This document shows, piece after piece, positions 38,165-63,946 of a stretch of 64,000 bases of DNA. Where the stretch lies: NCBI RefSeq assembly GCF_003719195.1, contig NZ_CP024996.1, forward strand, positions 4,340,001-4,404,000. The letters run 5' to 3'. Source of the DNA: Herbaspirillum rubrisubalbicans. Its GTDB lineage: Bacteria > Pseudomonadota > Gammaproteobacteria > Burkholderiales > Burkholderiaceae_D. A program made the translations under genes and the position numbers. The stretch's first letter is position 1. Each line of letters opens with the position of its first letter. The notes beneath the pieces were generated by a model. It was not told the origin of the DNA. It saw only the letters and a list, made by a program, of their open reading frames with translations, and searched no databases.

Positions 38165-40300
38165 TCATAAAGCCTGGATCGATCCCGGCACGATGGTGGC
38201 GCCGAACTCGCGCATCATGCTCACCACGAAGGGATCGCTCTTCATCTTCTGTTCTGCCTTGCGCTGGCGCTCGGCGCGCTCGGCCTCGGCCACGGCATTG
38301 GCGGTGTCGGAGACGGCACCGATTTCGGTCTCGACCCGGATCTCCTTGCCGAAGCGTTCGGACAGTACCGCCACCAGTTTATCCACGCTGCCCGAAGAAC
38401 GCAGGGTTTCCAGCGGGATACGCAGATGGAAGCAGACATTGCCGCCATTGAGAGCTTCGCAGCGTACCAGCTCGCTCTGGAAGGCCATCTGGTGCGCCAC
38501 GCCGCGCAGCGCGCTGAGGCTGGCCGCCAGGGTGGGCCAATGACCGTCCCAGCCCAGTTCGGCAGCGATACGGGCAGTTTCCTGCTGTTGCGCAGGCGTG
38601 GCGGACGGGCGCTGGGGTGCAGGCGGCTCTACGGCTGCCGCAGGGGCAATGACAGGTTCAGCTTTTTTTTCAGTCGCCTCGGCCATCGGCACGGACGGTG
38701 GCATAGCGGCGCTACCGGTTTCTTCTTCCCATGGCGGGATGGCGTCGAAGGGCGGCGGCTCGGGCATGTCCGGCGGCATCGGGCTGGCTGCACGCACGCT
38801 GCGAGTGGCGGCACTGGGCGCGGCATTTACAGCAGGCGTAGCGGCGGCCGGTGCCGCCGGTTCTGCAGCGGGAACCGGTGCGACCGGACGGGCTGCGGCC
38901 TTGCCGCCCTTGCCACCACGCAGCGCCATCAGGGCGGCTTCGCGGGCAGAGGTGGGGGCAGCAGCCGGCGGTGCAACAGCGGCAACGGGATCGGCGGGCG
39001 CGGCAGCAGGCGCAGCAACAGGTACCGGCGCCACTGCGGCAGCCGCTTGCACACGGCTGACCGGCGCACTGGTGACGGCGGCCTGCGGCGCCATGAGCGG
39101 TGCGGCCTGGCGTGGCGTGGCGGTGCGGGGGCCAGTGGCCCCGGTTGCCCCGGCTGCAGGGGCCACCGGGGCAGCGGGCACCGGCGCAGTTGCGCTGGCG
39201 CTGACCGGGCGGAAGGCCAACATGCGCAACAGCGTCATGCTGAAACCGGCATATTCGTCCGGGGCCAGGCCCAGTTCGTTGCGACCGTGCACGACGATCT
39301 GATAGAACAGTTGCACATGTTCCGCACTGAACTGGGCGGACAGGCGCAGGATATCTTCGCGGTTGGGCAGGTCATCGGCCAGCGCGGCCGGCACCGCCTG
39401 CGCCAGCGCGATCTGGTGCAGCAGCGTGCCCAGGTCTTGCAGGGCGGCGTTGTAGGACAGGCTGCGGGTGGCCATGTCGTCGGCCACGCCCAGCAGCGCG
39501 GCGCCATCCTGCACGGCCAGCGCATCGAGCACGCGGATCAGGTAGGACTGGTCAAGTGCCCCCAGCATCCCTTGCACCGCTTCCAGCGTGACCTTGCCGG
39601 CGGCATAGGCGATGGCCTGGTCGGTCAGCGAGAGCGCATCGCGCATGGAACCGGATGCTCCTTGGGCCAGCAGGCGCAGCGCCGGAGGGTCGAATTCGAT
39701 GCCCTCCTGGTGCAGGATGTTGTCGAGGTGGCTGATGATGTGGCCGGGCGGCATCTGCTTGAGGTTGAACTGCAGGCAGCGCGAGAGCACGGTCACGGGA
39801 ATCTTTTGCGGATCGGTGGTGGCCAGGATGAACTTGATGTGCTCCGGCGGCTCTTCCAGCGTCTTCAGCATGGCGTTGAAGGCGTGGTTGGTGAGCATGT
39901 GCACTTCGTCGATCATGTAGACCTTGAAACGCGCGTTCGAAGGGGCATAGATGGCCTGCTCCAGCAGTTGCGCCATCTCGTCCACGCCACGGTTGGAGGC
40001 GGCATCCATCTCGATGTAGTCGACGAAGCGGCCGGCATCGATGGCTACGCAAGCTTCGCACACACCACAGGGGGCGGCAGTGATGCCACCGGTACCGTCA
40101 GGGCCGACGCAATTGAGCGACTTGGCCAGGATACGCGAGAGCGTGGTCTTGCCCACGCCGCGGGTACCGGTGAAGAGGTAGGCGTGGTGCAGCCGCTGCT
40201 GTTCCAGCGCGTGCATCAGCGCGCGCACGACGTGTTCCTGGCCGACCAGGGTGTCGAAGCTGCGGGGACGGTATTTACGGGCGAGAACTTGATAAGACAT
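38165..40300 (-). CDS. dnaX: DNA polymerase III subunits tau/gamma DnaX
   Basis: DnaX is the clamp-loader ATPase; full-length tau also ties the polymerase and helicase together. The 711-residue protein has Walker A GTRGVGKTT (45-53), a four-Cys zinc module (CGVCEAC near 79-85), MIDEVHML and sensor LSRCLQFNL, then a long Ala/Pro-rich linker (about 370-580) and a C-terminal tau domain (about 590-711). An A8 run at codons 544-546 would, on slippage of -1, yield a stop two codons later (see separate entry). A TAAAAT hexamer about 37 bp upstream may be the -10 box. Confidence 0.96.
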   Translation of the reverse strand: MSYQVLARKYRPRSFDTLVGQEHVVRALMHALEQQRLHHAYLFTGTRGVGKTTLSRILAKSLNCVGPDGTGGITAAPCGVCEACVAIDAGRFVDYIEMDAASNRGVDEMAQLLEQAIYAPSNARFKVYMIDEVHMLTNHAFNAMLKTLEEPPEHIKFILATTDPQKIPVTVLSRCLQFNLKQMPPGHIISHLDNILHQEGIEFDPPALRLLAQGASGSMRDALSLTDQAIAYAAGKVTLEAVQGMLGALDQSYLIRVLDALAVQDGAALLGVADDMATRSLSYNAALQDLGTLLHQIALAQAVPAALADDLPNREDILRLSAQFSAEHVQLFYQIVVHGRNELGLAPDEYAGFSMTLLRMLAFRPVSASATAPVPAAPVAPAAGATGATGPRTATPRQAAPLMAPQAAVTSAPVSRVQAAAAVAPVPVAAPAAAPADPVAAVAPPAAAPTSAREAALMALRGGKGGKAAARPVAPVPAAEPAAPAAATPAVNAAPSAATRSVRAASPMPPDMPEPPPFDAIPPWEEETGSAAMPPSVPMAEATEKKAEPVIAPAAAVEPPAPQRPSATPAQQQETARIAAELGWDGHWPTLAASLSALRGVAHQMAFQSELVRCEALNGGNVCFHLRIPLETLRSSGSVDKLVAVLSERFGKEIRVETEIGAVSDTANAVAEAERAERQRKAEQKMKSDPFVVSMMREFGATIVPGSIQAL
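38658..38671 (-). promoter_or_regulatory. Candidate slippage site in dnaX producing a gamma-like product
   Basis: On the minus strand the codons read GAA AAA AAA GCT GA, an A8 run at 38670-38663. If polymerase adds one A or the ribosome slips back one base, reading becomes GAA AAA AAA AGC TGA, stopping after residue 547 of 711. Loss of one A also stops within about a dozen codons. A GAGG sits 6 bases upstream and a weak 5-bp GC stem about 20 bases downstream. Confidence 0.6.
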
Positions 40301-46104: not shown

Positions 46105-46436
46105 GGCGTAATCCTTTCTGGCGGGTCGTGGTATTGCCCGATGGCGAAGCTGTGCACTGAGCACGAGCGAGCTTGGGTACCGGTTCGCAGCATTATTGCG
46201 CTGGCCGGAAAAATCGCGTCTATTTTGCGCGCTTTCCCGTTCATTCCAGGGCAAATCGGGATTGTACGTGAAAAAAAAACGGCATCCAAAGATGCCGTTC
46301 ATTTTGTTGATCTGCCTTTACACCCGTTCACCTCGCAGTGTGCGAGTGTGCAGCTTTCAACGATTGTTACTGCTCGCGAGCGCAGAAAACTTCATCTGCG
46401 CCCGGCAAGAACTATCTGGTCACAGGCCTAGCCGGG
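46105..46436. other. Gap between ihfB and lapA
   Basis: This 332-bp stretch holds the ihfB terminator (46270-46299) and presumably the lapA promoter. No gene is supported. Confidence 0.6.
46270..46299 (-). terminator. Intrinsic terminator after ihfB
   Basis: On the minus strand ACGGCATC and GATGCCGT pair around a 4-base TTTG loop and are followed by about nine T residues. It lies 138 bp past the ihfB stop. Confidence 0.92.
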
Positions 46437-63565: not shown

Positions 63566-63946
63566 GGGGCCGACTTGGTTTCGACAGGGGTTGCAAAGCG
63601 GAACAGGGCATGCCGAGGACTGGTTACCTCGTTAATCCATCCGGAACTGCTTAAATGCAAACGACGAATCTTACGCTCTCGCAGCGTAAATCGCACCTAG
63701 AAACCTAAGAAACTTCTAGCTCTACAGCACTTCTTCCCTGGGGTGTGCTGGCAACAGCGGTAGAGTCATTTACAGGGAATCGTGGCGTATGGGGTTACTT
63801 CATACGTCATTAAATCCAAGGTAACTCGTCCTGTCGAAGCGTGTGCGTCCGCGTCGCCAGGATTAAAACCAATTGGCTGCACTACGCATGTAGAACTGTC
63901 TGTAGAGTGCTTCTGGACGCGGGTTCGATTCCCGCCGGCTCCACCA
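63566..63946 (+). ncRNA. ssrA: Transfer-messenger RNA (tmRNA)
   Basis: tmRNA frees stalled ribosomes and tags the unfinished protein for proteolysis. The 5' GGGGCCG pairs with CGGCTCC before the ACCA end (63941-63946), and the T-arm GGGTTCGATTCCCGC is intact. The resume codon GCA at 63657 begins the tag ANDESYALAA, ended by TAA at 63687-63689. Pseudoknot-forming segments fill the middle. Minus-strand open frames over this gene are false. Confidence 0.97.

Follow-up and report, generated by a model that had tools for sequence, protein, structure and literature searches.

The dnaX gene of Herbaspirillum rubrisubalbicans carries a run of eight adenines (A8), which is probably what is left here, in a weakened form, of a nine-A site (A9) kept by selection on its nucleotides; in the relatives harboring A9, RNA polymerase probably slips on the run, leading to a gamma-like DnaX. 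According to this reading, which we hold with reasonable though not full confidence, the nine-A site would be retained in many dnaX genes of the family and in some of those of other families of the order; slippage of RNA polymerase on A9 would probably yield mRNAs with As gained or lost, whose ordinary translation would reach an early stop; and the resulting gamma-like DnaX would lack the alpha-binding domain V but retain domains I-III together with most of the linker. The occurrence of slippage, its assignment to the polymerase and not to the ribosome, and a role for the short protein are what we infer from the sequences analyzed. In the genome under study, slippage would probably be weak, since the run is A8.

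The dnaX gene and its A8 run

The window, i.e., the whole stretch of 64,000 nucleotides analyzed, harbors on its minus strand (38165..40300) a dnaX gene coding for the gamma/tau subunit of DNA polymerase III (711 aa), which was taken from the ORF list and matches NCBIfam NF008975 and TIGR02397 above the cut-offs. Tau is encoded by this one ORF, which extends through domain V. According to Pfam, the ATPase part with its lid and the third domain fall within residues 20-362, the clamp-loader domain III (PF12169) spanning residues 237-362 (39215..39592, minus strand); domain V, the tau C-terminal alpha-binding domain (PF12170), covers residues 586-707 (38180..38545, minus strand), and an alanine- and proline-rich linker lies between the two parts.

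The run of eight As that the preliminary description had reported at codons 544-546 (GAA AAA AAA) was confirmed at 38663..38670 (minus strand); in the zero frame, it is followed by GCT GAA. If one A is added, or if the ribosome slips by -1, a TGA one codon past the run (38658..38660, minus strand) comes into frame and the product, of 547 aa, ends with ...EKKS-stop; if one A is lost, a TAG is met 10 codons past the run (38629..38631, minus strand; position counted by hand), giving a product of 556 aa. Both outcomes agree with what had been predicted, namely a 547-residue product lacking the tau C-terminal domain in the former case and a stop within about a dozen codons in the latter. Domain III is retained in both short products and domain V, lying past both stops, is missing from both; the proposal that a slip at this run would lead to a gamma-like DnaX deprived only of the polymerase-binding domain, at a place unlike that of E. 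coli, holds for this gene.

When the codons of the window's dnaX were shuffled 20,000 times, a run of at least eight As was obtained 27 times; the lysine codons of the gene are 4 AAA and 14 AAG. Moreover, the 64-kb window contains two A/T runs of at least eight nucleotides, i.e., the dnaX A8 and a run at 46271-46279; the latter is followed by an inverted repeat which, on visual inspection, resembles an intrinsic terminator. The window also harbors a tmRNA gene at 63566-63946, with the tag ANDESYALAA.

Distribution and conservation of the nine-A site

A scan of named genomes retrieved 80 dnaX loci, 69 of which with a complete ORF; nine As followed by CTGA and read in frame were found in 29 of the 80, the genera involved including Herbaspirillum, Collimonas, Oxalicibacterium, Noviherbaspirillum, Solimicrobium, and Sapientia. 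The A9 of the relatives, in the same place, is the strongest evidence against a chance origin of the window's A8.

The domain-V search carried out on the family of the window's genome gave a match in 190 out of 195 genomes. A9 together with an insertion-frame stop was found in 71 of the 131 dnaX loci examined among these 190 genomes, representing 19 out of 33 genera; this is an uneven share, as some genomes with the gene near a contig end and those with its place unlisted were omitted. The site is present in every genome examined from the genera g28 (11/11) and g24 (10/10) and in none of those from g32 (0/10) and g40 (0/8). On the whole, 14 of the 33 family genera examined lack it; therefore, a short DnaX would be either dispensable there or made otherwise. 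In six assemblies (G005, G058, G082, G146, G155, and G190), the domain-V match begins 196-503 bases from the contig start, which implies that the contig breaks inside dnaX; the GC-rich repetitive linker is perhaps the cause of these breaks.

The analysis of the linkers revealed a near-fixed core, GCT-(C/G)AA-AAA-AAA-ACT-GA (A9), in an otherwise diverged region whose flanks share little. The leading GCT occurs in 74 of 85 A9 sites, and the core is absent from one (L017) of the 88 distinct contexts with an in-phase run of at least eight As. Probing the 190 family genomes with SAAAAAAAAACTGA retrieved 89 matches, versus 11 for the reversed control; 70 of them precede a listed domain V by no more than 400 nt and are therefore in dnaX by coordinates, and two further matches (G009 and G047) are in dnaX via loci L084 and L107. 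The other 17 fall elsewhere or were unplaced, the dnaX positions of G069 and G156 being unlisted. The 17-mer that includes the leading GCT gave five matches in 399 genomes of the order, four of which in dnaX, and none with the control. The A9 site is specific to dnaX. Two matches were rejected as dnaX sites, their positions falling outside the gene: the one from G006 and the 17-mer match from the f19 genome G657.

All of the 79 distinct [QE]KKT[ED] contexts preceding domain V (loci L001-L237) are spelled [CG]AAAAAAAAACTGAN, that is, nine As with ACT. Outside the site, the 85 site-bearing genes harbor 524 AAA and 769 AAG lysine codons, while ACT accounts for 231 of the 2560 threonine codons in the rest of the same genes; the codons of the site having been chosen by A9 itself, counting them would be circular for lysine, and these figures serve for background usage only. 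Conservation of QKKTE at the peptide level was rejected, since no synonymous spelling occurs in any of the 79 contexts; judging from these spellings, the nucleotides are what is kept at the dnaX A9 site. Three near variants were found, in the window (A8 GCTGA), in L020 (A8 CCTGA), and in L134 (A9 GTGA), and substitutions retain a stop, i.e., GTGA in L134 and CTAA in five out of seven complete f50 loci.

Decay of the site in the window's clade

A9 and the stop are present in 8 out of 12 genomes of the genus Herbaspirillum. The three distinct sequences closest to the window in domain V, however, have lost the run, and harbor GAA GAA AGA or GAG CAA GGC in its place. At the site, the window differs from the A9 relatives in a single base (ACT to GCT); L020 has eight As as well, each of the two being one base from A9. 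Conservation of the A run and of the out-of-frame TGA among close relatives, by which the preliminary description had proposed to judge the site, is thus split: it fails in the three closest sequences, but it stands, in the A9 form, for most of the genus and for many other genera. This, in turn, implies that the feature is real at the family level and degraded in the window's genome (A8 versus A9). By comparison with these relatives, the A8 of the window is derived, within a clade that is losing the site; given the loss in the three nearest sequences and the A8 shared with L020, it would be either a remnant that has weakened or the last form still able to work.

For the window alone, and compatibly with any of the readings of the site in its relatives, we lean slightly towards the A8 being a functionless vestige on its way to loss. 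The single base separating it from A9 and the replacement of the run in the three close relatives agree with this; on the other hand, AAA is retained for the two lysines in a gene preferring AAG, both shifted-frame stops remain, and slippage on A8 has been inferred for certain bacteria, in IS elements of Deinococcus and Nostoc (passages of PMC1088944).

RNA polymerase or ribosome

The stops in the shifted frames and the surroundings of the run were analyzed on 88 distinct sites, which include three sites of f50, the A8 sites of the window and of L020, and a further A8, that of L331, which belongs to another order; near-identical species among them are not independent. A deletion-frame stop within 15 codons is present in 66 of the 88, versus 32 ± 4 in codon shuffles (0 out of 1000 as high) and about 35% at other linker places. 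Counting by family genome, such a stop occurs in 53/71, versus a fraction of 0.37 for the 840 equivalent places of 60 genomes lacking the site; counting by genus, the majority of genomes have it in 17 out of 19 genera, with g28 (Collimonas) at 1/11. In the site-less genera, deletion-frame stops within 15 codons are found at 0.33 of the equivalent places on average, with a range from 0 to 1.0, and the f50 loci L252 and L259 have none within 15 codons. The enrichment supports polymerase slippage, since ribosomes only slipping back by one would need a stop in that frame only; the test is supportive, not decisive, because of the 1/11 of g28 and of the value of 1.0 reached among site-less genera. 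Furthermore, the f1 and f50 sites have their stop directly in the -1 frame, whereas in f49, f12, f42, f47, and the f19 genus g269 the deletion frame is the one with the nearest stop.

No stem-loop signal emerged from folding the 55 nt after and the 45 nt before the 88 sites, the mean z of the downstream fold being -0.27 versus -0.24 at control places, and 0.6 for the window. Shine-Dalgarno (SD)-like words precede 7 of the 88 sites (0.08) versus 0.03 at control places; the window belongs to these seven, with a GAGG beginning 10 nt before the run. The heptamer A_AAA_AAA is in phase at the site, and in the window it is followed by GCT, the slip site not being A_AAA_AAG; the latter heptamer occurs in phase in 5 out of 149 linkers of the order, in three of them inside runs of at least nine As. 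Four anticodon-loop pattern matches were found in the window's genome, among which tRNA-Lys(UUU) occurs once and tRNA-Lys(CUU) twice. Separate tRNA-Lys for AAA and AAG are stated for Thermus, and the same review gives the two kinds of tRNA-Lys as a possible reason for polymerase slippage in that genus (PMC5009743, in part).

On the basis of the stops in both frames, the immediate stops in the deletion frame, the lack of a structure signal around the 88 sites, the rarity of SD-like words, and the two kinds of tRNA-Lys, the sequence data favour a transcriptional slippage of the Thermus type over a ribosomal frameshifting of the E. coli type. The preliminary description had admitted both an extra A in the transcript and a -1 slip of the ribosome, and the second mechanism comes out as the less likely of the two. 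Programmed -1 frameshifting on A_AAA_AAA, as in the E. coli dnaX but elsewhere in the gene, is in our opinion unlikely, although it would account for the stop directly in the -1 frame at the f1 and f50 sites, for the in-phase heptamer, and for the SD-like words, with the GAGG of the window; the grouping of Neisseria dnaX, along with those of Salmonella and Vibrio, with the E. coli type in a database (excerpt of PMC3711429) counts against polymerase slippage. Against it stand the downstream structure, no higher than the background, the presence of two kinds of tRNA-Lys, the in-phase A_AAA_AAG limited to five linkers, and the deletion-frame stops, both their enrichment and their being the nearest ones in five families or genera; in addition, nine As are retained, while the heptamer needs seven.

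A sliding of ribosomes in either direction on the A run, without stimulators and with short products arising from a homogeneous mRNA, would explain the stops in both frames too, and it has been reported on lysine-coding poly-A (part of PMC4363877); we consider it very improbable, as the run holds two AAA codons only and nine As is a length for which efficient polymerase slippage in vivo has been reported (passages of PMC5009743). Equally hard to sustain is the idea that the run is no recoding site, being kept for the QKKTE peptide, for a DNA/RNA motif or by chance, with the stops limiting the damage from accidental slips: the absence of the site from 14 genera and the similar deletion-frame stops of some site-less ones would suit it, but it is countered by the A9 spelling in 79 out of 79 peptide contexts, by the substitutions preserving a stop, and by the expectation that slippage-prone runs are counter-selected in coding regions, in which they are under-represented in some genomes (according to parts of PMC1088944).

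The site in the order at large

Runs of at least nine As were found in 31 of 149 complete linkers from the order, versus 2.1 expected from codon shuffles; the 149 linkers comprise 132 from a draw of 150 genomes and 17 from a draw aimed at f12, f19, f47, f49, and f50. In the even draw alone, such runs occur in 20/132 linkers and in 10 out of 50 families, most families of the order being represented by one to four genomes. As for the single families, f49 harbors A9 in eight out of nine complete linkers, with an immediate stop in the deletion frame in 6/9 runs (five CTCTGA and one CACTGA); A10 with an immediate stop in the deletion frame is found in f12 (2/2) and in the f19 genus g269 (2/2). A9 lies in other phases of dnaX in f36 (L290, L412, and L413) and in f42 (L296 and L425), alike within each family and with both shifted-frame stops within 13 codons. 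In f47 (L301 and L362), A9 is followed by CTCCAGCC in both of the genomes seen, with shifted-frame stops 5 and 10 codons on. Counted from where the domain I-III match ends, the run begins 0-37 codons further in f36, f42, f47, f49, and f50, and 124-175 codons further in three f1 loci, whose linkers are longer. The tree of 97 rows, in which many branches are weak, requires seven changes of site state. Outside the order, among the best 28 class-level loci (114 genomes searched), 26 have complete linkers, one of which (L323) with a run of at least nine As.

A different arrangement was observed in five f19 loci, L306, L307, L352, and L358 (genus g62) and L267 (genus g131), where dnaX stops 76-108 codons after domains I-III as matched, while the sequence of domain V resumes in the +1 frame across an overlap, the poly-A run being absent. 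The last zero-frame codons are CGG GGA GAG TGA in L306, L307, and L352, whereas L358 and L267 differ. A production of tau by +1 frameshifting appears possible in these loci.

Tentatively, and with a confidence that stops just short of even, poly-A transcriptional slippage could be an old and common route to a gamma-like DnaX in the order. According to this scenario, the run would have been kept while the linker grew or shrank, the frame of the immediate stop would have switched between families, passing from insertion to deletion, and repeated losses of the site would have occurred, one of them still under way in the clade of the window; the f19 lineage may be a reversed case, with tau needing a +1 shift.

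Comparison with known systems

Neisseria, mentioned above for its dnaX, is a betaproteobacterium. We found no report of such a dnaX site in the lineages considered here in the openly licensed literature, although a report elsewhere is possible. According to a part of a 2012 review, most bacteria other than enterobacteria and Thermus lack the dnaX frameshift signature and may make no gamma (PMC3290774); the purpose of gamma is disputed (PMC5009743, in part). If the present reading is true, a slippage site conserved in many genera would mean that the short DnaX is under selection there, and it would provide natural pairs of genera with and without short DnaX, with a role testable by two synonymous codon changes. 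Screens for disrupted ORFs overlook sites of this kind, where the shift makes the product shorter (excerpt of PMC4066793).

Outside dnaX, poly-A slippage leads to a shorter protein in the tssM3 of Yersinia pseudotuberculosis (part of PMC4256274); this gene is unrelated to dnaX, and the likeness lies in a truncated second product arising from a poly-A shift. Chlorobium and others have a dnaX made of two ORFs, in which tau depends on recoding (passages of PMC3711429); poly-A in dnaX as the recoding site, here putative, is shared with the case described here, where, however, tau is in frame, while there it needs the shift. The f19 loci represent a possible reversed case in which tau would need a shift, though without poly-A.

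The dnaX of E. coli makes use of A_AAA_AAG, an upstream SD, and a 3' stem-loop (parts of PMC5009743 and PMC3711429), and its gamma consists of the first three of the five domains only (part of PMC3290774). The window resembles it in the predicted shorter DnaX without domain V, in the -1-frame stop right after the slip, and in the GAGG before the run; it differs in lacking A_AAA_AAG, a stem-loop signal, and a single tRNA-Lys for both AAA and AAG. Moreover, while the E. coli gamma is cut after three domains, the cut in the window would fall just before domain V.

The sites described here resemble the dnaX of Thermus thermophilus in sequence. Thermus dnaX harbors nine As with stops in both frames, and about half of its product is short (passages of PMC1088944 and PMC5009743). 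As in the A9 sites described here, the nine As lie late in the gene, tau is a single full-length ORF, both shifted frames have near stops, and separate tRNA-Lys exist for AAA and AAG. The differences are that Thermus belongs to another phylum and that mRNAs of mixed length are its defining observation, whereas the sites reported here are known from sequence; in addition, the distance from the run to domain III and the frame of the immediate stop vary by family here. The window itself, with its A8, departs from the Thermus type in the length of the run, and shares with it the early stops in both frames and the tau encoded by one ORF.
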